Source: a virus. From it: a DNA stretch of 37,556 nucleotides. Shown piece after piece: positions 1 to 27,933 of this stretch; the stretch's first letter is position 1, and every line of letters starts with the position of its first letter. The translations under genes were made by a program, and so were the position numbers. The notes under the pieces are model-generated. The model was not told where the DNA came from and searched no databases. It saw only the letters and a list, made by a program, of their open reading frames with translations. The stretch lies in IMG/VR virus record IMGVR_UViG_3300033141_002298, positions 1-37,556 of that record, one strand, 5' to 3'.

Positions 1-2145
1 AACTGTAGATTGTTCAACTCCTTCTTCATTTATCCCCCAACCATGTGCCATTGAAGTTCCAGAAGCACTGTAAGGATAAACATAAGCTTCTATATATACC
101 CATTTATCAGAATCTAAAGCACTACCATCCCATGAAGAACAATAAAAATAAGGATTATTTGTTAATGTATCTCCTAAAGTATAAACCCCTACATCACTTC
201 CATTATCATCTAATCCTTCTAACCCGAAATAAGCTTCACCAGCAGTATTGTCTCGTTTTATCCACATACTAAAACGATACATTTTTTCTGGATTAATTGG
301 AACTTTTGTTGTATAGACTATTGCATTTCCACTTGTAACTACTTCATATGCTTTTACTTCTTTACCATCTATAAAAGGAACTGTAACTAAACTTAAACTA
401 TCATATCCACTTCCAGTATAATCATTAGATGAAGTTGGTTGAGCACCATAAACAAGATTGGTAGTTGCAGCATGTAAAGCTAGTCCATCTACGTGAGATG
501 TATTAGTCGCATTCACTCCAGCACTTCTTCTAAAATTTATTTTATCATTGAAAGTCCAATTAGCGTCTATTACGTTATCATATGAATCTACACAAACTGT
601 TCCATCTACATTTGGTAAAGTATAAGTTCTTGGTGTAGCATTATTACAAGTAAATTGACCATATGATGAACCTACACCATAAAATCGTAAATCCCCAGAA
701 CTTATAACAATTCCATTAGTTACGTACAAATTACCTACAGTTCTAATAGTTCTTGTAGAATCATTAGCGTAAAAATAAGGTATATCACCAGTTCCTTGAT
801 TAGTTATATACAAATATTTTGTAGTTAAATTATTACTAAATGACCAATTACCAGAAACAACTTCATCTTGACTTAAATGAGCATATTGAGGGTGGTCATC
901 ATCTCCCAAACCACCTATAGACCCATGGTCTATACCAACAGTTGAACCACTAAAAGATACTGAACCACTAAAAACTGTTGAACCACTAAATGTCCAAGAA
1001 CCAGTTATTGTATGACCATAACTGTCTAAACAAACATTACCAGTTTTATCTGGAAAGGTATAAACTCTTGTAGCAGTATTATTATGAGTTAATTTTCCTT
1101 CATATAAAGTTCCAGCTTTTAAAATTATATCACTGGTTACACGTAAATAATTGTTTATATCAAGTAATTTTGCAGAAGAATTACTAAAAATAAGAGGATT
1201 ATCCCCAGTTCCTTGATTATCTATTTCTATTTGATAAAAGGTTTGTTTAACAGAAAAATTATTATCAATAGTATTTAAACAAACATTACCATCAATATCT
1301 GGAAAAGTGTAAGTTCTGTGTGCAGTATTAGCGTGATATAATAAACCAGAATATCCCACCTCAGAAAGCCATTCGATGTAATCAGAAACGGATAAATCTC
1401 CTTGTAATGATAATACACGTGTAGACGCATTAGCACTTAGCAAAGGATTGTCTCCAGTCCCTTGATTATCAATATACAAACTTTTTACTATTGTTGTCCC
1501 ACTTAAAGTCCAATCACCAGTAATTGTTTCTGTTTGACTTATACCAGCATATTGGGGATGGTCATCGTCAGCTAAACCAGAAATAGAACCATGGTCTATA
1601 CTACTCTCAGTAAAATGAATAGTAGAATCGTCTAAATGATTTCTAACTTCTGTATCGGTGAATGATGCATTTACAACATTTGTAGTAGTAGAAGTTACAC
1701 CACTCCACATTACAATATTACCAGTTGTTCCACTTCCAGCTACACCACTACTACCTAACCCCCAGTCTTCATAAGGTTTGGCTACACCACTAATGATAGC
1801 ATATATATTGTTGTTATCAGCATAAAAACCAAATTGTGTATCTAAATTAGTATTTAAATCTCCTACTGTTCCACTTCCATAACCTATTACACTTTTACTC
1901 TCAGAAATAAACCAAAAACCACTACTGCCGGACCAAACTGGTGTTCCAACACTAGAACTGGTAGGAACACCATTATCATCAGTAGTAAAAGTTATTTGCC
2001 ATGGAGAAACAAAGGAAGCTAAATAGGCCTCACCAGTAGGAGGAACACTAGACCAAGTTACAGTATTATCTGGATTAACAGTTGTAGTATTTTCATAGTC
2101 GTTATTATCTCCGGCGATTTTATAATTCTGATATTCTGTTCCCAT
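1..2145 (-). CDS. Tail fibre-like protein, C-terminus cut by window edge
   Basis: This reading frame is open for 715 codons from the ATG at 2145 and runs off the left edge, so the C-terminus is missing. It is probably a receptor-binding fibre or a structural tail appendage. The motif DHGSISGLADDDHPQYA, typical of phage tail fibres, occurs at about residues 184-200 and again, slightly changed, at 406-422. A QGTGD(N/I)P block recurs near residues 228, 311 and 450. An (R)xYT(F/L)P(D/N)..G.VC block recurs near 278, 361 and 507. The last visible region (residues about 600-715) resembles a carbohydrate-binding jelly-roll, with YRFSMWIKRD followed by an Asp/Tyr-rich stretch. It follows the spike gene but has its own TATA box 26 nt upstream. 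Fibre role is inferred from motifs and position. Confidence 0.75.
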   Translation of the reverse strand, partial: MGTEYQNYKIAGDNNDYENTTTVNPDNTVTWSSVPPTGEAYLASFVSPWQITFTTDDNGVPTSSSVGTPVWSGSSGFWFISESKSVIGYGSGTVGDLNTNLDTQFGFYADNNNIYAIISGVAKPYEDWGLGSSGVAGSGTTGNIVMWSGVTSTTTNVVNASFTDTEVRNHLDDSTIHFTESSIDHGSISGLADDDHPQYAGISQTETITGDWTLSGTTIVKSLYIDNQGTGDNPLLSANASTRVLSLQGDLSVSDYIEWLSEVGYSGLLYHANTAHRTYTFPDIDGNVCLNTIDNNFSVKQTFYQIEIDNQGTGDNPLIFSNSSAKLLDINNYLRVTSDIILKAGTLYEGKLTHNNTATRVYTFPDKTGNVCLDSYGHTITGSWTFSGSTVFSGSVSFSGSTVGIDHGSIGGLGDDDHPQYAHLSQDEVVSGNWSFSNNLTTKYLYITNQGTGDIPYFYANDSTRTIRTVGNLYVTNGIVISSGDLRFYGVGSSYGQFTCNNATPRTYTLPNVDGTVCVDSYDNVIDANWTFNDKINFRRSAGVNATNTSHVDGLALHAATTNLVYGAQPTSSNDYTGSGYDSLSLVTVPFIDGKEVKAYEVVTSGNAIVYTTKVPINPEKMYRFSMWIKRDNTAGEAYFGLEGLDDNGSDVGVYTLGDTLTNNPYFYCSSWDGSALDSDKWVYIEAYVYPYSASGTSMAHGWGINEEGVEQSTV

Positions 2146-2167
2146 TATTATACACTTTATACAAATC

Positions 2168-2176
2168 TATATTTAA
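2168..2176 (-). promoter_or_regulatory. TATA box of the tail fibre gene (leaderless)
   Basis: The minus strand reads TTAAATATA, centred about 26 nt before the ATG at 2145. Transcription should therefore start at or next to the start codon. No Shine-Dalgarno site is visible. The box overlaps the stop codon of the upstream spike gene. Confidence 0.55.
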
Positions 2177-3267
2177 GATGTTTTAACCTTTCTTGAAGTA
2201 TTTTGTTTTACAGTTGCCAATCCCCCATCATTTATAGATAAATTACCAGAAACAAGCTCTATACTTTGCATCATAGCAGTAGATGGTACAACTGGTCCCA
2301 TATTAGTAACATAACCAGCCATATAAGTAGTATTAACTAATCCTTCAATCTTAAAATTAGAAACCCCGCTAATTGTTATATTGTCCCCATTAGCAACTAT
2401 AGTATTAGAACTACCATTTAGTTCTATTTGATTAGAAGCATCAATAACAACTTTGCCTTGAGATGAAATAGTTATATTTCCATCAGAAGTATAATTTATG
2501 GCCACACTAGAATTAATAGTTATACCATTACTGTCTAAAATAATGTTATTACCATTATTATCTACAATAGATATTGTTCCACTATCAGCAACATCTATAT
2601 CCCATTGAGGATTAGAAACATCTCCTCCACTCAATGAACCGCTACAAATAATATTGAAACCATAAGCTGCCATAACTATAGAACCACTATTTAACCAAAC
2701 CTTTTCTCCCGTATCTCTACTTAAGAATAAACCCGCATCTGGAACAGAGGGTTTAATTTGACTTTCACTATAGACATCTTCATCTAAACCTATCTGGTCA
2801 TAATTAAGCTGTTTCCCCCATTGTAAATAATCATCCCCAGAAAGAATACCCATTCTTCTACCAGAAAGAGTTATATCTCCTTCTGTTTCAGAAGTAGGAT
2901 ACTGGTCTTCCAAGACTATTCTTGCTCCTTTCCCAGAACTTATAGAAAGTTGGTCATCAAAATGAACTGGGCGACCTCGTTGAGTAACTGCACCTATAAT
3001 AAAGGCACTATTATCTAGAAGTCTTAATTTATCATCTTTAAAAACAAAAGAAGCCATAAACATTACTAAATCCCCTACTTTATAAGTGGGAATAAATCCG
3101 CTTCCTTTATCTTTGTCAGAATAAGAACTGATAGGAACACCAACAAATAATCTTGAACCTATTCTTTCTATTTCTTCTTCAGTGGCATTAATTTCTATCA
3201 TGTAGCTATTAAAATTGGGATTAGTCTGATTGATTTTTCCCATATATATTTTCCAACTTTCATCCAT
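2173..3267 (-). CDS. Baseplate spike protein (OB-fold plus beta-helix, gp5/VgrG-like)
   Basis: Protein of 364 residues. The N-terminal half (to about residue 200) reads as a compact beta domain with YKVGDLVMF and LLDNSAFIIGAV strands, like the OB domain of tail spikes. The C-terminal half is a repetitive Asn/Ser/Ile-rich region (for example SIVDNNGNNIILDSNGITIN), typical of a triple-stranded beta-helix needle. It would form the central membrane-puncturing tip of the contractile tail. The start is taken as the ATG at 3267, because AGGTG lies 6 nt upstream; a GTG at 3276 is possible but has no binding site. It directly follows the hub gene. Spike assignment rests on fold-like sequence texture and gene order. 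Confidence 0.6.
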   Translation of the reverse strand: MDESWKIYMGKINQTNPNFNSYMIEINATEEEIERIGSRLFVGVPISSYSDKDKGSGFIPTYKVGDLVMFMASFVFKDDKLRLLDNSAFIIGAVTQRGRPVHFDDQLSISSGKGARIVLEDQYPTSETEGDITLSGRRMGILSGDDYLQWGKQLNYDQIGLDEDVYSESQIKPSVPDAGLFLSRDTGEKVWLNSGSIVMAAYGFNIICSGSLSGGDVSNPQWDIDVADSGTISIVDNNGNNIILDSNGITINSSVAINYTSDGNITISSQGKVVIDASNQIELNGSSNTIVANGDNITISGVSNFKIEGLVNTTYMAGYVTNMGPVVPSTAMMQSIELVSGNLSINDGGLATVKQNTSRKVKTS

Positions 3268-3268
3268 T

Positions 3269-6200
3269 CTAAACACCTAATATTCTTCTTATTTCTTGAG
3301 GGTATTGGCCTCCTAATCCAGTTTCAAACAACATATTAGCAAACTGTCTGGTCATTATGCTATCATCAAGAAATTGCGTACCAAAATTAAGAGGTTCATC
3401 AGTAATATAAATTTTGGAAGTAAATCCACTGGTAACCCCAAAGTTACCTACATAGATAACGTGTTTCCAAACATACCAAACAAAATCTCCTCCGCTTTTA
3501 TCTAAATAATCTTCATAGAAAACCTTGCCTTCAGCTCCCCCTCTAAATAAACTGTCTATGGTAGTTTGCCCCAGAACAGCCTTAGTAAGTCTACTTGCAG
3601 TCTTATAAACAGTACCAACCTTACTATCATAGTATTTTCTATCTAAGGTTTGTCTTACTATACCATCTCCCCCTTCTCTCCAGAGGATAATCTCGTCTCC
3701 TATATCTACCAATGGCTTAGCAGACATGTATAGGGAACCATTTTTCCCGCTGAAAGAAGTTAGCCCGTAGATAAATTTCAAGATAGAATATAACCCAGTA
3801 CGAATAATTAAAACTACATATTGAACAAATGACCTCTTTAACCATACCATACCTTTAGTAAGAATAGTTCTATAACTGTTATTAATATCATCTCTTTGAA
3901 GCCAATCACTCCTAAAAGAAGTGTAAGTATATTTAGCAATCTTCTTAATGAAATCTCTTAAGTCCAACGTTTCTCCAGTAAAAAAGGATATATCCGAAAA
4001 CAAATTATACGCAGTTTTAATTATTCGGTCTGGATATGTTTCCCATTTAACATTCATAAACTTAATAATTTCTTCTGCTAAAACGTCCGTAACCAAACTG
4101 GTGTCCCCATTAACCCATCCCTTATAATATTGAGCAATAGTACGAGTAATATTATTTACTTCATCCATAAAACTTTCTGCAAAATCAATAAAGTCTTTGA
4201 CAGTAGTTTTTCGCTTCAAACTTAACAATCCACTGTTAGTATTAAACTCTCCAATAATTTTATCTCTATCAACATCTCCTACAATTTCACCAAATATTTC
4301 ATTAGGTTTACTAAAAACTATTTCAGTTTTATCCATCTTAAAAACCTTTCCTCGCTCAGTGCTTTCTAAAGTTTCAAGATGTGTCTTTACGGCTTCTATC
4401 TCTTTTTCTAATTCATCATAACCAGTAGCCGACCCATCGTTTACAATAGAAGTACCAGCGGTAACAGCATTGGTCTTAAATGTTCTAATAGGTTGCATTT
4501 CACCTTCTCCAAGATTAATTATCTTGGTACTGTTATTAGATGAACTTTTGTAAGGAAAAGAAATCTTTGCACTATAATTACTACCATCGAATTTACCTTC
4601 ATTACTGGTCGTCTGAGTATTAACTTCCCAGATATCATATTCATCAATATCGTTCTTATGAAAATTAAATCTAGCCCGTAAAGAAGTATCCATGTCATCT
4701 TGAGAAGATACTACTTCCAAAGTTTCTAAATCTCTCCCACAAAATCGGTAATGAAATAATGAAACAAAAGCACTCTTACTAATATAAGAATAAGATTTAG
4801 ACCATAATGCTCTTCTAACATTGTACTTTGTTTGATATTGCTCTACAGCTAAACGGTGTAAGAAAGTTTCAAAGATATCAAATATCGAAGGAACTCCTCC
4901 ATCAAGACTAGTATGTATATCACTGGGGTCTCTTTGCACCATTATTCCACTGGTATTTATCTGCCCATGAATAGTTTCCATAGCTTCGACCATGTTTCTA
5001 GTAGCCATATTAGAAACAAAATAATCATCTACAATATTGCTACCTACTTTTTTATCCCATTTTTCATCTTCAGCAAACTTAGCTGAAATAACTTGAGAAG
5101 TAGTAGGGTCTAAAAAGTATTTGATATAAATCCATTTATCATTTGTATCTCCTTTAGGACAATCCAATATCTTGTTTTTAATGAACTTGTCTACAATAAT
5201 CTGATAAAGTGCAGTTCTATTTTTTTTCCAATCCTCAGTATTAAAATAAGTCATCTTCTGACCAGTACTAGATGCAATAGATAAATCAAACATGGCATTA
5301 AAAAATTCCATAATATCTATCTTCAAATACTCTATCTTGTACCTCTCTCTTGGAAGTATTCCACTCATATACCCCACATTGGACATCTTAACTAAATTAA
5401 GACCTCTTGCATTATTATAATAATCTCTGAACAATGGGTCTAGTACTAAATTGTTAAATGGGGTATTAAGATAACTAACATTTTCCTCTCCAAAATTAAA
5501 TTTGTAATGTTGAAAATATCTGATAGGGTCTTGACACATAGCTCTGAATTGTCCACTACGTGCTACGTGTCTTCTCTTAACAGTAAGAAACCCAGCAAAG
5601 TTAGGAAATTTTGGTCGGTTAATATCTTTGCCCTTAAGTTTATTGGAAGCTTCAAGAACCTTTCCTATCTTCCCTTTCTGAAGCATAGACAAAGGGTCGT
5701 TTCTTATCTGAAGTAAATCACTCTTTTTCCAATCTTTTTTCCAGTCTAACTTGAAATCTGAACTCTTCTCGTAATATAAAGCTATCATAGCCTTATCTAA
5801 CATGGGTGTTCCTACTGCTCCTCCTAACGAGGCTACCCAGTTAGTGTCTTTCATATCTATTAACCAAATAAATATAATATCATTAGTTCGTAAGGTACGA
5901 TAAATTAACCCTTCTTGGTCAGCAAAAGCTATCTCTGTTCTATTACCAAATTTGCTGGTAGTATCTACTTGTACTCCCAATACATCAATGGCTGCTTTGT
6001 TAGAGGTATCAAGAAGTAATCCTTTAACTCCACCAGATAAAGTTTTGGTACCAGTTAACAAACTAGAACTGATATCAATTTTGCTAGCAACCTTTTTGGT
6101 TTTTTGGTACCAATTAGTTGCTTCTTCATAAGACTTCAAACCCTCTTCTGAAATCCACCATTTGTAATATGGCTGAATTTTCATGATAGGAACATATTCT

Positions 6201-10181: not shown

Positions 10182-11453
10182 TCATATTGTTGCTGAAACA
10201 ACTAAGTTCACATTTATCTCAGTCACTTCAAAGACTGGAACTATAGTTAAATCACATCTCATGATATGATTCACTTCATCGGTAGATGAAGCAAAAACAT
10301 TCACGGCAAATTCTTTAATCATCCCTTGAGATACCATTTGCCTAAGAGTGCTTTCCACTCTTGACTTTGCTGTTGACCGACCTAATGAAGTATTATTTGA
10401 AAACAAGAATGGTAAGAGTGTATTTCTTGTTCTCTTGGCTGCTGTGTCTGCTATTTCACGAGTAGTCAAATAAGAGAAGTCTGAACCAGCAGCAGAAAAT
10501 GTCCATCCTTTATCAAACATATAAGAGACAGATGCACCAGTACTCCACCTTCGTGGAAATAGAACATGGTCATCGCTCATACTTTCCATATCAGCCTTTT
10601 TGAGTACTGCTTTAGTAGTACTACCACTCCATACGGGGGTAAATCCTAAAGATTTCAAAGGAACATGTGGTTGCATAGCAGCACGTCTACCAGCTAACCA
10701 AGCAGCTAACCAGTTACCACCAATTTCCACACTCCCAGAAGCAAGAGAAAGAGCAGCCAGATGGGTATCAGAAACATCATAAACAACGTTTCCAAACTTA
10801 TGAACAGTATTACCTACTAATGTGATTGTTCTTCCATAATCTGATTTTGCTCCAGCATAGCTACTTAAATCATAAGTAGTTCCACTGAACACTTCTTGAT
10901 AACTAACTCCAGTAATATAGATTCTTTCTTTTCCATTATTCACACTGGAAGCAGTTTCCATCTCCGTAGTTACAGCAGAAATAGGAGGTTTACCAGCTAT
11001 TACAACATAATAAATATCATCAAACTCTCTAAGTTTTGCAAGAGCTTGAGTTGTTCCCGTATCAGCACTAGTACCATACGTACCAGTTCCAGAGAGTACA
11101 CAAGCATAAACTTTGGACGCTCCACCAAGAAAGGCCAATTCTACGGCTCTGATAAGATTAGTTTCATTATCATAGGCTCCAGTACCAAAAGTAGTTTGAC
11201 TATAAGTTCCAGCATCCCAAGAACCAGAAAGAGCTAACCCGCATTTTTGTACAGCGTCAATAAGGTTATTCCAAACGAATACCTCACCTTCATTAGAAGC
11301 ACTCCATTTTTCGGCATCATTGATATTATAACCACTTGAGCCACTTTGCATATGTCCAATAACTGCTACTGCTCCAGTAGTTGTAGAAGGAGTAGGAGCT
11401 ATACCTCTCGTGGTTTCTGTAATGAATATACCAGCGAGTTTATGTGTTGACAT
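10182..11453 (-). CDS. Contractile tail sheath protein
   Basis: Protein of 423 residues. The N-terminus (HKLAGIFITETTRGIAP) resembles the strand used for subunit linking in sheath proteins. The C-terminal 60 residues, including IKEFAVNVFASSTDEVNHIM and LTIVPVFEVTEINVNLVVS, match the conserved sheath C-terminal domain that reaches to the next ring. The middle is a Ser/Thr/Gly-rich variable insertion, which is usual for the outward-facing domain. This gene shows that the virus has a contractile tail. A TATA box sits 25 nt before the start, and GAGAGGT lies just before the ATG, so both leaderless and SD-led initiation are possible. Confidence 0.88.
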   Translation of the reverse strand: MSTHKLAGIFITETTRGIAPTPSTTTGAVAVIGHMQSGSSGYNINDAEKWSASNEGEVFVWNNLIDAVQKCGLALSGSWDAGTYSQTTFGTGAYDNETNLIRAVELAFLGGASKVYACVLSGTGTYGTSADTGTTQALAKLREFDDIYYVVIAGKPPISAVTTEMETASSVNNGKERIYITGVSYQEVFSGTTYDLSSYAGAKSDYGRTITLVGNTVHKFGNVVYDVSDTHLAALSLASGSVEIGGNWLAAWLAGRRAAMQPHVPLKSLGFTPVWSGSTTKAVLKKADMESMSDDHVLFPRRWSTGASVSYMFDKGWTFSAAGSDFSYLTTREIADTAAKRTRNTLLPFLFSNNTSLGRSTAKSRVESTLRQMVSQGMIKEFAVNVFASSTDEVNHIMRCDLTIVPVFEVTEINVNLVVSATI

Positions 11454-12732: not shown

Positions 12733-13068
12733 TTACTCCTTCCGAGATTTATCTTTTAGACTTTGATATTTTTTATGTTCCCATTTCTCACTAGGATTAG
12801 TAATCTTAGATATTAATCTATTAACTCTATCAATATTTTCTTCTGTTTCTACTGTGGTCTTTCTAATAATTTTGTCTGAGCTGATTTTATATTGTCTCTG
12901 TATTATATCTCTACATATTTCCCACGTTGCAATACTACATCTACTAAGTAACTCTTTAACAAAACTCTCTTCATCTGGTATTTTTACACCATTCTGTTTA
13001 AAGTAAGTTATAAAGTAGTTAGGGCAAAGATGAATAATAGGATTATCCCACTTCTCATTGTGTTTCAT
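12733..13068 (-). CDS. Hypothetical protein, 111 aa
   Basis: Not recognised. It is basic and mostly helical, with three Cys (positions about 15, 44 and 52) that do not form a zinc-ribbon pattern, and a Lys-rich C-terminus. Its ATG overlaps the stop of the upstream gene by four bases (ATGA), showing translational coupling. The position between glycosyltransferases and tail completion genes suggests a virion or assembly role, but nothing in the sequence proves it. Confidence 0.55.
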   Translation of the reverse strand: MKHNEKWDNPIIHLCPNYFITYFKQNGVKIPDEESFVKELLSRCSIATWEICRDIIQRQYKISSDKIIRKTTVETEENIDRVNRLISKITNPSEKWEHKKYQSLKDKSRKE

Positions 13069-13280
13069 TTCTTAAACACTTCCTTACAAGTTACATTTCC
13101 TTTTTTAACTTCAAGTTCAATTTCAAGATTATCTACAATAGCCGTAACTATCATTCTAATATACCCATCAGAATCAGTCTTAAAATTCAAATCTCTTACC
13201 CAACCAATTAATTGGTCGTCAAAAAAGACTTTTGTAAAATGTTTATGACCGTTATCTGACACAATTTTTAACTTCACCAT
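13065..13280 (-). CDS. Small hypothetical beta-rich protein, 71 aa
   Basis: Not recognised. The protein has alternating hydrophobic strands (KVFFDDQLIGWVRDLNF, YIRMIVTAIVDNLEIELEVK), compatible with a small beta sandwich or barrel. A very strong ribosome binding site, GGAGGTGAT, lies 5 nt before the ATG and is embedded in the last codons of the glycosyltransferase gene. It is translationally coupled to the next gene. Confidence 0.6.
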   Translation of the reverse strand: MVKLKIVSDNGHKHFTKVFFDDQLIGWVRDLNFKTDSDGYIRMIVTAIVDNLEIELEVKKGNVTCKEVFKK

Positions 13281-15292
13281 TATATATCACCTCCTACAAG
13301 AACTTCGTAAAGCTTCTTAGCAGACCTTTTCCAAGTAAACCGTTTAACATCTTTCCTAGCTTGTGTTCCTAATCTGGAACATTCAGATGGATGTTCATAA
13401 GCATACCTCATTGTTTTACGAAGATTATCTATAGAAGGAACTGCCCATTTCAAAGCATTAGTTGGAGCATACCATCCAGCTCCATTGCTAATTTCCATAG
13501 TTTCTGGTTTAACCAAGAACGAGTTTTTCTTGTTCATATAAGTCAAATGACCTCCATATTCTTGTGCAATACAAGGAATCCCACAATTATGAACTAAAAT
13601 ACCATTGGCAAAATATATTCCACTACTAGTGGCTATGTTATATACTTTTCCGCTAAAGTTGTATATTGACTTTGAGAGAATTTTACTCTTTGATTTAATT
13701 TTCTCATCTCTATGAAGGCTTTCCAGTCTTCTTTTGTGTATTTGTTCATAAATGTTTCTTGTCTTTTTATTCGTCTGTTTATAAACGAAATCAATATTCC
13801 ACATTGTTTCTTCTTCAAGATAAGATAAGGGTGCAATTTTTCTAGCAAAGGTAATATTTTCATTCCTTGCAAAATTGTTGTATAAAATTCCGATTTTTGT
13901 TGTCTCCTTTTTATATCCAAGTAACTTTCTGGAAAATTCTGTTTCAACCAATTGTGTATTTCTATACACTTGTTGCATATGCGTATTTGAGGAATTAAAG
14001 TGCCTATCAATCTCTCTTCTGCTCGACCCTTTCGATGAAGTCGAAATGTTATTGTTCCATCTGCGTCTATAAACCCAGCCAGATATGAAATCATCTCCTC
14101 TGGAATGTTTATATTCATCATCTTCATTCTTCCAATTTTTGTTTTCTTTAATTTCATTTCTCTTACTTTCATTCTTATTGAAGCTTCTGAACGTCTCTTT
14201 AACATCTTTGAAATTTGATAAGCTGTATGGGTCTCCCAATTTTCTTTCAAAACTTCCAATTCTTCTTTTGTCCATCTCATATAATTCATATAACTCATCA
14301 CCTATTAATATGTCTTTTGCCATCTTCCATCCATTAACTGTGAAAATGGGGTGTTCTGGAGTACATTCAAGTATTGAACTCTCTGTTTCAATCCTAATCA
14401 TTTTACCATCATAATGTCTTACATGTACATCTTCTATGCCACTTGGTATATCAACCAAAGTATTATATGGAAAACATGCCATACTTTGCATATATGGGAG
14501 ACACCAACTTTCCCCTTTACTTGGTAAAATGAAACAGTCTGCACTGTTGTAAAGCTTTCTTAATCCTTCTTCATTGAACATTTGTCCAATAACTAAAATA
14601 TGAGGAGGATTTTTTAATCCCATGTCATAACTTAGTCTTTTAACGCTGTTTTGAATATTAACCATAGTAGCAAAAGTATTATCTTTTCCATAGGTTTTAA
14701 TGATTAAGTTTACTTTGTCATCACCAGTAAATTCACTAAGATAAGATTTCAACAGTTCATGAAATCCTTTCCGCATTATCCATTGACCTAAAGAAAGAAA
14801 GACAAATCTATTTTGGTCATCCTTTTTAATCATAGGTTCATCTGGATAAAACGTCTTGGTATCTACTCCGTGATTAACTATGTGAATTGGTTTAGGAACA
14901 TTCCCTATAGAATCTTTAATCATATTTTTCACAAATTTATTAACAGTTACATATTCATCATAAACGCTTATTAACTCTCTCCATAGAGGCGGAAGCCTAT
15001 CATTTTCCCACACAAACTTTATCAAGTTCCTTGTATGGTCTGGTGGTGTATTCCAAATTACTGGAGTACCGTATCTTAGAAGCGGAACTTGAAGAGTAGA
15101 AGTATTCTTCATCATTGAAGTAAAAATTTCTGCTTCTTTTTCTGGTAAATTTAAACGCATTTTATCTACGTGATTATCTACCAAATGAATGTCCAATCCA
15201 AGTTCATTCATTCCTAATAGTAGTTTTCTAGCTACAAAAGAATATCCACTTGGAGCAAATACTGTCGTTTCTATTTTAACGTCTGCTGTCAT
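13280..15292 (-). CDS. GT4 glycosyltransferase interrupted by an intein
   Basis: The precursor is 670 residues; the spliced enzyme would be 373. The exteins form a GT-B fold glycosyltransferase of family 4. The N-terminal domain starts with VFAPSGYSFVARKLLLG, the C-terminal domain starts near FVFLSLGQWIMRKG, and the sugar-nucleotide site is ILPSKGESWCLPYMQSMA joined to CGIPCIAQEYGG. The usual E-x7-E pair of GT4 enzymes is E261 and Q269 here, so the second Glu is replaced. The intein lies between A272 and C570, inside this conserved motif. The start is the ATG at 15292, overlapping the stop of the adjacent GT gene. With its neighbour it probably glycosylates a virion or host-surface component; the substrate is unknown. 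Confidence 0.85.
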   Translation of the reverse strand: MTADVKIETTVFAPSGYSFVARKLLLGMNELGLDIHLVDNHVDKMRLNLPEKEAEIFTSMMKNTSTLQVPLLRYGTPVIWNTPPDHTRNLIKFVWENDRLPPLWRELISVYDEYVTVNKFVKNMIKDSIGNVPKPIHIVNHGVDTKTFYPDEPMIKKDDQNRFVFLSLGQWIMRKGFHELLKSYLSEFTGDDKVNLIIKTYGKDNTFATMVNIQNSVKRLSYDMGLKNPPHILVIGQMFNEEGLRKLYNSADCFILPSKGESWCLPYMQSMACFPYNTLVDIPSGIEDVHVRHYDGKMIRIETESSILECTPEHPIFTVNGWKMAKDILIGDELYELYEMDKRRIGSFERKLGDPYSLSNFKDVKETFRSFNKNESKRNEIKENKNWKNEDDEYKHSRGDDFISGWVYRRRWNNNISTSSKGSSRREIDRHFNSSNTHMQQVYRNTQLVETEFSRKLLGYKKETTKIGILYNNFARNENITFARKIAPLSYLEEETMWNIDFVYKQTNKKTRNIYEQIHKRRLESLHRDEKIKSKSKILSKSIYNFSGKVYNIATSSGIYFANGILVHNCGIPCIAQEYGGHLTYMNKKNSFLVKPETMEISNGAGWYAPTNALKWAVPSIDNLRKTMRYAYEHPSECSRLGTQARKDVKRFTWKRSAKKLYEVLVGGDI
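13633..14289 (-). CDS. LAGLIDADG homing endonuclease nested out of frame in the intein
   Basis: Protein of 218 residues from the ATG at 14289. The N-terminus (WTKEELEVLKENWETHTA, then a basic helix) is a SANT/Myb-like helix-turn-helix. Residues 70-78 are LAGFIDADG followed by GTITF, the single LAGLIDADG block with its catalytic Asp, so the enzyme should act as a homodimer. Read along the minus strand, its frame is +1 relative to the intein. The coding region lies wholly inside the intein and ends at a TAG within the block F codons. GGTGAT at 14297-14302 lies 7 nt before the ATG. It should cut intein-less copies of the glycosyltransferase gene. ATGs at 14298 and 14280 are possible alternative starts. 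Confidence 0.85.
   Translation of the reverse strand: MNYMRWTKEELEVLKENWETHTAYQISKMLKRRSEASIRMKVREMKLKKTKIGRMKMMNINIPEEMISYLAGFIDADGTITFRLHRKGRAEERLIGTLIPQIRICNKCIEIHNWLKQNFPESYLDIKRRQQKSEFYTTILQGMKILPLLEKLHPYLILKKKQCGILISFINRRIKRQETFMNKYTKEDWKAFIEMRKLNQRVKFSQSQYTTLAEKYIT
14297..14302 (-). promoter_or_regulatory. Internal ribosome binding site of the nested endonuclease
   Basis: GGTGAT matches the archaeal 16S tail and lies 7 nt before the ATG at 14289. In the intein frame the same six bases encode the Gly-Asp of the conserved ILIGDEL segment, so the site is both protein-coding and a translation start signal. Confidence 0.65.
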
Positions 15293-22369: not shown

Positions 22370-23926
22370 TTATTTAGGCTTTGTTTTATCAGATTTATGA
22401 GATTGTGTTTTAGTATTAGTAGCTCTAGTCTTAGCAGCAGCAGCACTAATTTGAGCAGTCTCTTTCTGTACTTCCAATCCTTTTTCTTGAATATCTAGCT
22501 CTCTGTCCATGTTCTCAGTAGCCTTATTAAGATTCTCAGCTTGAGCAAGAAATTGTCTGAGTTGAGGATGTAATTCATCTTCATCATAGTATTCTGACCT
22601 ACCAAACTCTTTACGAGCTTCTGGCAAAGTAAGAGTACCAGCAATAAGTTCTTCTCTAACTCTTAATCTTCTATTAGGAATATTCTCAATTTCATTATAT
22701 CTAATAAAGGGTACTTCAGCATATTGTATTGGGGTAATTTCATGAACAGCCTTTCTTCCATTAGCTGTTTTTAGGTCATTAGGATGAAACAAAAAGATAT
22801 CTCGCAAAACCTCATTAGTAATCATTCCACCTATATAGTTTTGTAGAACCATTATTCTTCTTCTGAAATACTCTTCTGTAATTTCATCTGTCTGCCCAGA
22901 AGTAGAAGGAACTAATCCAAGTATAGTAGCTGGAACACCTAAAGTAGTAGAAATAGCTCGTATTTGATATTCCATAAACCAATCAGTATCCATAACTTTA
23001 TCTCCACCAGAAATAACTTCTGCCTTAACTCTGCCGTCTACTGCTATGTCAGAACCCATAGATAATCCTTGAGAAATACTAGTTGCTATTCCTTCCATAT
23101 GTTTTCGAGGCATGGGATTATCAGCATCACCCATATACCATACAGTGAGTGGTCTTGCCATAGTTCTGATAATATCAGCAGTATCACTTTCCGCACCAAG
23201 TAAAATATTAATAGAAGTACGAATAGGTCTCATCAATGACCTACCATATGCTCCTCCAGTATAATCTCTTCTTTTGAAGTGAACCACATTCTCTGCTGGA
23301 ACCTTAATAAGCCACTCATCTCTATCTCTTTTATTAGACTTCCCTTTAGTAACACCAGCTCTTGGAACAAAATATGAACCTTGTACATGTTCAATCTTCG
23401 AAACGTCTTGTACATATGTTTTAGGATTTCCCCATTTATCCCTCTCTATCTCAACAGTATGAGGATGTACGAGTTTCAATTTCTTTATTCCCCATCCTCC
23501 TTCATCATAACTTTTTTCATCATAAATTTTCTCTACAAAAGCATCTCCCAACCCTTCTACACACAAAGCTATCTTTTCTTTAAGACTTGTAAGATTTACA
23601 AATCTACTCCACAACCTTAAGAACTTTAACTTCTCTTTATGTCTGTCCTCCAACTCCTCGTCATTGTCAAATCCGAAAGTATATCCGTATGCTACAGTTA
23701 CACTTGCTTTGAGGTCTAAACATGCCATAACTATTCCAACGGTATCCATGGCTTCTTCATATTTTAATATATTATCTTTCCTAGCTTCAGTAAATCGTAT
23801 ATACTTTTTTGGAAGAATAACCAATTTTCCTTCGTTTCTTGGTCTCGCTTGGTCAACAAACCACTGCTGATTCATTCTTGTACCCAAGTGAGTAGCATAT
23901 GGTTCTGGATACTCTTTTTCATTCAT
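22370..23926 (-). CDS. Portal protein
   Basis: Protein of 518 residues of the HK97/SPP1-like portal type. An early segment has AMDTVGIVMACLDLKASVTV, the centre has ENVVHFKRRDYTGGAYGRSL, then IRTSINILLGAESDTADIIR. The long stem helix area is followed by GVPATILGLVPSTSGQTDEI and YFRRRIMVLQNYIGGMI. The sequence LG.P...LG....S. is characteristic of portals. The C-terminus is Lys/Ala-rich and disordered. The dodecamer would sit at the capsid vertex and feed DNA. It is the first gene of the virion module here. A TTTAAGTA box is 25 nt before the ATG, and AGGAT is adjacent. Confidence 0.87.
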   Translation of the reverse strand: MNEKEYPEPYATHLGTRMNQQWFVDQARPRNEGKLVILPKKYIRFTEARKDNILKYEEAMDTVGIVMACLDLKASVTVAYGYTFGFDNDEELEDRHKEKLKFLRLWSRFVNLTSLKEKIALCVEGLGDAFVEKIYDEKSYDEGGWGIKKLKLVHPHTVEIERDKWGNPKTYVQDVSKIEHVQGSYFVPRAGVTKGKSNKRDRDEWLIKVPAENVVHFKRRDYTGGAYGRSLMRPIRTSINILLGAESDTADIIRTMARPLTVWYMGDADNPMPRKHMEGIATSISQGLSMGSDIAVDGRVKAEVISGGDKVMDTDWFMEYQIRAISTTLGVPATILGLVPSTSGQTDEITEEYFRRRIMVLQNYIGGMITNEVLRDIFLFHPNDLKTANGRKAVHEITPIQYAEVPFIRYNEIENIPNRRLRVREELIAGTLTLPEARKEFGRSEYYDEDELHPQLRQFLAQAENLNKATENMDRELDIQEKGLEVQKETAQISAAAAKTRATNTKTQSHKSDKTKPK

Positions 23927-27102: not shown

Positions 27103-27172
27103 CTACGAAGATATATAGATTACGAAACTCACAAAAGGAAGACCACCAATGAAGGGTTGTTTATCTTTATTT

Positions 27173-27487
27173 TTACACTCTTTTATTTCCATGTTTATAT
27201 CTTCTTTTCTTATTTACCTCTAATTTTTTCACTATTTCTTCTCCTATGTTTATGTTTAATCCAGTCGTTAGGTCTAATAATCTAATCATTGTGTCTGCTA
27301 TTTCTTCTTTGAAGTTTTCAAAATCATAATTTCTGTATGCTTCCAGAGCTTCTGATAGTTCTGATACACATAACATCAATTTTGTTGGAATAAAGTTTTC
27401 TAACTTATTCCATGCATTTTCTGGAAAAATCCAACCATTTTCGTCATTTATTTTTCTTATTTCTTTTTCTATCTTTTCTAGTTCCAT
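27173..27487 (-). CDS. MazG-like nucleoside triphosphate pyrophosphohydrolase
   Basis: Protein of 104 residues, all helical. The metal-binding pattern is ELSEALEAYR then NFKEEIADTMIRLLDL (ExxE...ExxD), followed by KKLEVNKKRRYKHGNKR, the conserved basic end of phage MazG-like proteins. Such enzymes hydrolyse (d)NTPs to monophosphates and may lower alarmones or damaged nucleotides during infection. It overlaps the upstream gene by ten bases and follows it in the same transcript. Confidence 0.75.
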   Translation of the reverse strand: MELEKIEKEIRKINDENGWIFPENAWNKLENFIPTKLMLCVSELSEALEAYRNYDFENFKEEIADTMIRLLDLTTGLNINIGEEIVKKLEVNKKRRYKHGNKRV

Positions 27488-27933
27488 TTTTTTTCTACCT
27501 CCAGCGAGTATAGACTTAACGCTTCATCCACTCCATATCCTTGCCATTCATCATCTTTAGAAAGGTTTGGGATGTTTTCAACGTATTTTGCCTTTGTTCT
27601 CCATTGGTGTCTACATTTTAAACATATCAAGGTACTCCACTTACTCGGGTGGGGTTTCCCTTTAGGATGCTCTGAATAGCTAACATTCTTTTGACGTAGC
27701 ATTACTCTATAATGACTTTTAGAACAATTATGTTTCTTTCTTTTTAACACTAATTTTCCCCCAATATTTAACACTACCTTCCATAAAGGTCTATCAGAAG
27801 GAAATTTTACTCCTATTGCTCCACTATTAAACAATCTTTCTTTTAATTCCACATCATTTATCTTTGCTTTTATTCTTACAGTGTCATTTCCAACATACAT
27901 TACATCATAGACATCAAATTCATACTTTGGCAT
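27478..27933 (-). CDS. Hypothetical protein with WRTKAKYV zinc-binding motif
   Basis: Protein of 151 residues. The first 70 residues are strand-rich with VRIKAKINDVELKERLF. The second half carries HNC, then HPSKWSTLICLKCRHQWRT followed by KAKYVENIP. The segment HPS..S...C.KC.H.WRTKAKYV.N.P also occurs in the 72-residue protein at 32360-32578. The Cys and His probably bind zinc. The start is the ATG at 27933: a TATA box is 25 nt upstream. The TTG at 27948 is less likely. Confidence 0.6.
   Translation of the reverse strand: MPKYEFDVYDVMYVGNDTVRIKAKINDVELKERLFNSGAIGVKFPSDRPLWKVVLNIGGKLVLKRKKHNCSKSHYRVMLRQKNVSYSEHPKGKPHPSKWSTLICLKCRHQWRTKAKYVENIPNLSKDDEWQGYGVDEALSLYSLEVEKKWN

Follow-up and report, generated by a model that had tools for sequence, protein, structure and literature searches.

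A LAGLIDADG endonuclease gene in the +1 frame of a viral glycosyltransferase intein, and its overprinted relatives

The window, a 37,556-nucleotide stretch of viral DNA (IMG/VR record IMGVR_UViG_3300033141_002298, positions 1 to 37,556), carries on its minus strand a gene for a GT4-type glycosyltransferase (GT; 13280..15292; Pfam Glycos_transf_1, E 6e-9) that encodes a precursor of 670 amino acids (aa). Judged by its motifs, the insert at 13586..14476 is an intein of 297 aa, from Cys1 to Asn297, and is predicted to splice. It separates a 272-aa N-extein (14477..15292) terminating in ...LPYMQSMA from a C-extein (13280..13585) with the N-terminal residues CGIPCIAQEYGG, so that the insertion site lies between MA and CGIP. 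All features of the locus described below are on the same strand. The intein starts with CFPYNT, contains TPEH and ends with IYFANGILVHN before CGIP. The Cys1 codon, in block A, is at 14474..14476; TPEH, at 14351..14362, is a TxxH motif of the block B type; and the C-terminal splicing region, KVYNIATSSGIYFANGILVHN followed by Cys+1, occupies 13586..13648. The nucleophile Cys1, the pair His296 and Asn297, and Cys+1 are thus all present at the coordinates given by the sequence-only reading, an earlier annotation of this DNA that had described an open intein frame with every splicing residue. Because 13280-15292 is a single open frame, the intein is neither split nor fractured.

Profile searches agree with this assignment. 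The NCBIfam model intein_Cterm scored above its cut-off on the window copy (17.4 versus 15.6 bits), and intein_Nterm fell just under its cut-off of 24.5 bits (17.8 bits with the full open reading frame (ORF), 24.0 with the intein alone). The Pfam model PF14890 gave E 6.2e-6 with the full ORF and 6.5e-7 with the intein alone. At E up to 0.01 a splicing model was the sole Pfam match in the intein frame, with no fused endonuclease domain, as expected from the earlier remark that the in-frame linker lacks an endonuclease motif. No Rfam family, group I introns included, was matched between window positions 13000 and 15500 with E values up to 0.1.

The +1 frame of the intein strand holds a LAGLIDADG endonuclease ORF of 222 aa from a GTG (13633..14301, including the stop). 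The likelier extent of the gene is 218 aa from the ATG at 14289 (13633..14289), since an ATG also precedes the N-terminal module in the ten other members of the family described below. With either start, the complete LAGLIDADG protein and the roughly 218 dual-coded codons reported earlier are borne out. A single motif, YLAGFIDADG (14056..14085), follows a helix-turn-helix (HTH)-like N-terminal module (14125..14289). The endonuclease matched LAGLIDADG_1 with E 7e-4. Its best match in the PDB was a two-copy I-MsoI chain (E 4.2e-8 summed, 0.02-0.05 per copy), and ordinary I-CreI and I-MsoI chains gave E 6e-4 to 3e-2. As it has one motif, the enzyme is expected to act as a dimer, by analogy with I-CreI/I-MsoI type enzymes. 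Residues 9-89 of 222, from the N-terminus to the motif, are 39.5% identical (E 7e-7) to a cyanobacterial (Trichormus) plasmid protein, the match covering both module and motif. The evidence for the N-terminal HTH proposed earlier is weaker: the module has this relative, and HTH-type Pfam matches were obtained in single other family members but not in the window copy.

Intein-less alleles of the host gene exist. Two IMG/VR contigs whose portal proteins are 85% identical to that of the window (L006 and L007) have an intein-free version of this GT gene; they are 99.98% identical over 11,993 bases and in effect represent one allele. The junction is exact (TATGGCA/TGTGGG), the L007 protein reading MQSMACGVP, with the N-extein joined directly to the C-extein. 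The GT exteins of the window and L007 are 76% identical. The window and L084, another family member, share 55% identity in the splicing domains and 26% in the exteins, which, together with a relative at 76% that has no element, fits mobility. One further contig, IMGVR_UViG_3300033153_009397, is 100% identical to the window over 10,666 bases and may not be independent, possibly coming from the same sample.

Two long open frames are unlikely to have arisen by chance, as the sequence-only reading had argued. We shuffled the codons by synonymous swap (protein and codon counts kept), by recoding with phage usage and by permutation, 20,000 times per test. Shuffling the endonuclease codons placed on average 12.5 (swap), 20.4 (recoding) and 16.9 (permutation) stops in the intein frame, and the reverse shuffles placed 5.7, 7.4 and 10.9 in the endonuclease frame; an open frame was left in 0/20,000 shuffles in each of the six tests. 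The unused third frame of the window has 35 stops across the 218 codons, and the longest alternative same-strand open run in 23 other genes of the window spans 80 codons. In swap tests of the individual members, the intein frame stayed open in 0 to 9 and the endonuclease frame in 0 to 61 of 3,000 shuffles, the weakest being the GC-rich L016 and L089. Had an in-frame endonuclease shifted recently, stops would still be present; the layout is thus neither a new frameshift nor an error.

Relatives of the endonuclease were drawn from viral contigs and genome contigs. The viral-contig scans covered 600 stretches in one and the best 80 of 147, 263 and 240 in three others; this census is incomplete, so that the member count is a lower bound. 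The 292 loci obtained reduce to 179 distinct LAGLIDADG ORFs, at least 11 of which, the window included, lie within a longer ORF in a different same-strand frame. All 11 host ORFs have intein-like ends, and the endonuclease is offset by +1 in 11/11. A search of the kind suggested by the sequence-only reading yields ten relatives in the register of the window. Three of them (L084, L016 and L087) are in GT4-type genes at a site homologous to that of the window, where Cys is preceded by EAMS or EAQA; L086 and L089 occupy a different site in GT genes; L144, from a metagenome-assembled genome (MAG) of Ca. Terraquivivens, has a weak GT match; L085, L030 and L046 are in DUF2201 metallopeptidase/VWA genes; and L145, from a MAG of a Bathyarchaeota archaeon, is in a DUF5131 gene. 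The local GC content ranges from 0.35 to 0.64. When the 11 intein sequences were searched, PF14890 matched 8/11 at E up to 0.01, and at E up to 0.05 the NCBIfam models intein_Nterm and an intein-containing radical SAM model matched 8/11 and 10/11, respectively. With the full ORFs of the ten other members, PF14890 exceeded the Pfam cut-off in 6/10, L016 scoring below it. The +1 residue is Cys in 10/11 members and Ser in L085. The LAGLIDADG motif is retained in 11/11, and the alignment of the 11 endonucleases, with identity down to about 20%, has 14 invariant columns, not counting the start Met that we chose.

Homologues with an endonuclease fused in frame had been named as the observation that would speak for compensating indels. 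None was found among the 179 with a filter that asked for both an ORF >350 aa and the motif H[NQ][CST]; as L058 and L076, which have long open frames, failed this filter, it may have passed over an in-frame fusion of unusual form. Searching 398 genomes of the phylum of L145 (E up to 1e-15) gave no members beyond the two already known. With tblastn, the window endonuclease had no match at 1e-5 in 50,697 phage records, and at 1e-2 those of L046, L087 and L085 had only matches below 80% query coverage, some of which were inspected. Several candidates were set aside. In L022, L040, L059, L107 and L130 the endonuclease match is covered to 0.88 to 1.00 by another frame, which is short or shows no intein; in Microcystis phage Mel-JY01 the tblastn match extended into the intein, yet the gene carries none.

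On a tree of the 179 endonucleases the layout needs 2 changes, against a mean of 10.8 when shuffled, and the members fall in a 15-row group with an SH-aLRT of 94. Separate trees of splicing domains and endonucleases both pair L030 with L046 and L086 with L089, on long branches; L016 and L087 pair in the endonuclease tree only, and window/L084 is resolved in neither. Three loci in the 15-row group, L092, L146 and L044, have shorter endonucleases amid head-protein ORFs and apparently split a capsid gene. At gathering thresholds, Rfam gave no match in L092, L146, L044, L016, L030 or L085.

Selection within the overlap is seen in the endonuclease. Its frame is 56% (L030/L046), 50% (L016/L087), 38% (window/L084), 32% (L086/L089) and 42% (L085/L145) identical in five pairs, as against 34, 30, 28, 10 and 20% for the intein frame and 35, 27, 27, 12 and 21% for the unused third frame. 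Divergence peaks at endonuclease codon position 3 in 5/5 pairs. The third frame has 9 to 35 stops per member in the overlap, whereas the intein frame has 0. An endonuclease codon that ends in T before AA, AG or GA creates a stop in the intein frame, and across the 11 members such stop-creating positions end in T in 0/381 cases, versus 454/1,219 at other positions. The 0/381 follows from the intein frame being open; hence we used 168 relatives without the layout as a control. In these, T occurs at 2,220/4,954 stop-creating positions and 6,129/12,385 elsewhere; the frame in the intein register is open over the core in 0/168, and the other same-strand frame (HEG+1) in 1/168. For the intein frame, selection in the overlap shows solely in the absence of stops, its amino acids being about as conserved as those of the third frame; the endonuclease frame is the conserved one. 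The contrary case, no purifying selection in either frame, does not agree with a motif and 14 columns kept in 11 members.

The genetic code offers a reason for the single register. Any T-ending codon can be exchanged for a synonymous one that ends in C; the intein frame can thus always be opened without altering the endonuclease. By exact minimisation over the endonuclease cores, unavoidable stops occur in 0/179 in the +1 register and in 111/179 in the other same-strand register; among the antisense registers, they occur in 0/179 when codon-aligned and in 121/179 and 134/179 in the other two. For nine of the 11 members, the other same-strand frame would not have been available. This register rule could explain why 11/11 share one register, and so could common descent.

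Cultured Gordonia and Vibrio phages appear, from their sequences, to carry antisense versions. In nine Gordonia phage records, which represent six named phages (SchottB, Barsten, Nordenberg, Thing3, Sitar and Lennon), a LAGLIDADG ORF lies under a MuF-like minor capsid gene. The antisense position was read through in SchottB and Nordenberg, Barsten, Thing3, Sitar and Lennon being close matches. In SchottB (L308, OQ995426.1) the ORF at 2471-3148 on the plus strand faces the MuF-like gene at 1034-4135 on the minus strand, and in Nordenberg (L311, NC_055777.1) the ORF at 2009-3088 (plus) faces the gene at 965-4072 (minus); both lie inside stretches with intein-like ends, that of SchottB matching Pfam Hint_2 with E 1e-5, below the cut-off. 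Vibrio phages 1.113.A and 1.197.A (L317, MG592487.1; L318, MG592566.1) have a 303-codon antisense ORF (2648-3556, minus strand) inside the intein of a MuF-type gene. This host gene has an annotated intein C-terminal region, and in 1.113.A it matches Phage_Mu_F and, below the cut-off, PF14890. The antisense ORF of 1.113.A has a weak nuclease match (REase_MTES_1575, E 0.023, below the cut-off) and no match in the PDB. All four antisense cases inspected are codon-aligned (4/4). Because in this register nothing but the set of codons used matters, the codon-swap test is uninformative here, and a codon-avoidance test took its place for the two Vibrio phages: TTA, CTA and TCA make up 0/42 and 0/43 of the Leu and Ser codons of the antisense ORFs, compared with 56/151 and 49/125 in neighbouring genes.

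Among the closest known systems is the canonical large intein, such as PI-SceI, in which the LAGLIDADG domain is in frame. The window shares with it the terminal splicing blocks, an endonuclease between blocks B and F, a site in a conserved motif and the existence of empty alleles; it differs in that the endonuclease is a separate +1 gene with one motif, probably acting as a dimer, and that the in-frame linker matches no known domain. I-MsoI and I-CreI also have a single motif, and their similarity to the window endonuclease extends from just before the motif onward. Known endonucleases of this type are intron-encoded; in the window, the enzyme carries an extra module at its N-terminus and its gene overlaps an intein. 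Fractured genes with split inteins, reportedly described by Dassa and co-workers in 2009, are said to have free-standing endonucleases made apart from the intein; the window, unlike these, has an uninterrupted intein and an overlapping endonuclease gene.

Out-of-frame endonuclease genes have been described in other settings. For the ShiLan element, which has an out-of-frame HNH gene, the authors find no self-splicing domain and propose that the insert is kept as a loop (PMC11855218). This element and the Pacc40 insertion resemble the window in an open host frame, an endonuclease hidden in another frame and a sporadic distribution; they have an HNH enzyme and no splicing domain, whereas the window has intein blocks and a LAGLIDADG enzyme. 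PMC12613952 reports another methylase carrying an out-of-frame HNH gene, PMC9957025 a LAGLIDADG endonuclease within a phage methylase, and PMC7886860 the inteins and introns of crAss-like phages. Among the literature matches listed, there was no recognisable account of an intein with an out-of-frame endonuclease, the nearest being PMC11855218. On overlapping frames in actinobacteriophages, that paper refers to Gosselin et al. 2025 (bioRxiv) and Gorbalenya 1998; both may concern similar layouts and may bear on priority for overprinted inteins.

Taken together, the sequence evidence makes it highly probable that the locus is a composite mobile element, in which the intein frame would splice and the overlapping +1 gene would make a free homing endonuclease. 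When the host frame is read, the 297-aa intein would remove itself from the glycosyltransferase, so that its position in a conserved enzyme motif would hardly be harmful. Between the N-terminal and the C-terminal splicing blocks, the DNA would double as a complete +1 gene for a free-standing, one-motif LAGLIDADG endonuclease with an HTH-like module, probably initiated at an internal ATG. Independent initiation there is likely. In all 11 members a stop closely precedes the endonuclease in its own frame, with 2 to 29 codons from there to the ATG taken as the start. In the window AGGTGA (14298..14303), 8 nt ahead of ATG 14289, is a possible Shine-Dalgarno sequence, too weak to prove an internal start. 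The endonuclease would cut intein-less alleles such as L006/L007, and repair would copy in the whole element. The intein frame would be kept free of stops through synonymous codon choice in the endonuclease, and its amino acids in the overlap look like a by-product. The core proposal of the sequence-only reading, an intein frame kept open for splicing together with a free-standing +1 endonuclease, is thus supported by the two frames and ten relatives, while separate translation and cutting keep the status of predictions.

Other explanations account for parts of these data. Programmed ribosomal frameshifting would yield a fusion in which the N-extein and the N-terminal intein segment precede the endonuclease, with no internal start; the +1 offset in 11/11 and the weak or absent start signals of several members would suit it, but the upstream stop in the endonuclease frame of every member, 2 to 29 codons before an ATG found in 11/11, makes this route unlikely. 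We give slightly less credence to an insert that stays unspliced as a loop in the host protein, in the manner proposed for ShiLan, so that the endonuclease alone would matter. Insertions of out-of-frame endonucleases without splicing domains are described in PMC11855218, and +1-frame LAGLIDADG ORFs exist in phage methylases; against this, the window has Cys1, a TxxH-type block B and HN before Cys, and most members match intein models. That the endonuclease is a decaying relict whose frame is open by accident is quite improbable: its activity is a prediction, which leaves room for such a relict, but the motif and the 14 invariant columns are kept in 11 members down to ~20% identity, and openness by chance is unlikely. 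A misassembly, or an ordinary in-frame endonuclease with a pair of compensating indels, has a negligible probability even though the sole close copy is identical and possibly from the same sample, as a recent shift should show up as some 12 to 20 intein-frame stops and ten further members with the same layout argue strongly against it.

Several observations weigh against the composite mobile element or its generality. The LAGLIDADG_1 match of the window endonuclease sits below the curated cut-off, and Pfam finds no HTH in it. The PF14890 matches of the window, significant as they are, fall short of the Pfam cut-off of 35.8 bits. The same model misses 3/11 inteins, and the full ORFs of L087, L030 and L046 are unmatched at E up to 0.001; the intein ends of these three are placed by Cys and HN/Cys motifs, the NCBIfam matches being counted set-wide. 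Boundaries were set on Cys1, His and Asn, so that their invariance in the alignment is partly by construction. Within the 15-row clade, L092, L017, L146 and L044 have no overprinted layout, and L087 and L089 could have used the other same-strand register. Among 1,466 background ATGs, ~20% reach the Shine-Dalgarno energy of the window ATG, -3.7 kcal/mol, and a Shine-Dalgarno signal is absent from several members. The sole close copy found is identical and so uninformative for dN/dS. AlphaFold without alignments was unusable (mean pLDDT 39.1 for the endonuclease and 33.3 for the intein).

Beyond the window, we regard it as reasonably probable that overprinted inteins form a broader class, their endonuclease having departed from the intein polypeptide to become a gene of its own over the linker. 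The +1 lineage would have moved as a unit among glycosyltransferase, DUF2201 metallopeptidase/VWA and DUF5131 genes of viruses and archaea-binned sequences, and antisense versions, one with a different kind of nuclease, would have arisen separately in Gordonia and Vibrio phages. The genetic code would limit the overlaps to same-strand +1 and codon-aligned antisense, where every intein-frame stop is removable without altering the endonuclease. The novelty is that of a variant of the intein with a homing endonuclease, its interest coming from the family and the register rule rather than from a single case. It would add a further way of pairing an endonuclease with a splicing element, beside intein fusion and intron ORFs; in its same-strand overlap of some 220 codons, both frames have an evident purpose. 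If true, endonuclease dosage and dimerisation would be freed from splicing, and the permitted registers would be predicted. Searches for endonucleases in the intein frame only would label such elements endonuclease-free inteins. For the antisense version, the Vibrio and Gordonia phages in culture would allow experiments.

Some further features were noted. LAGLIDADG ORFs in the +1 frame also occur in DNA methylase genes of Gordonia and Mycobacterium phages (L310, Sitar gp4/gp5; L309, DotProduct gp64; L008, Getalong gp85), where no intein blocks were noticed by eye. In the window, a tail-sheath gene at 10182-11453 indicates a contractile-tailed virus, and the portal protein at 22370-23926 has mostly haloarchaeal tailed virus and Bacillus phage matches, at 23-27% identity among the matches listed. 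The stretch 27160-27491, with a weak MazG-like match (E 0.0024), is 93% identical to L006/L007, other aligned stretches being 72-83% identical; the position of this MazG-like gene relative to the major head gene differs from that in L006/L007, perhaps reflecting a recent exchange.

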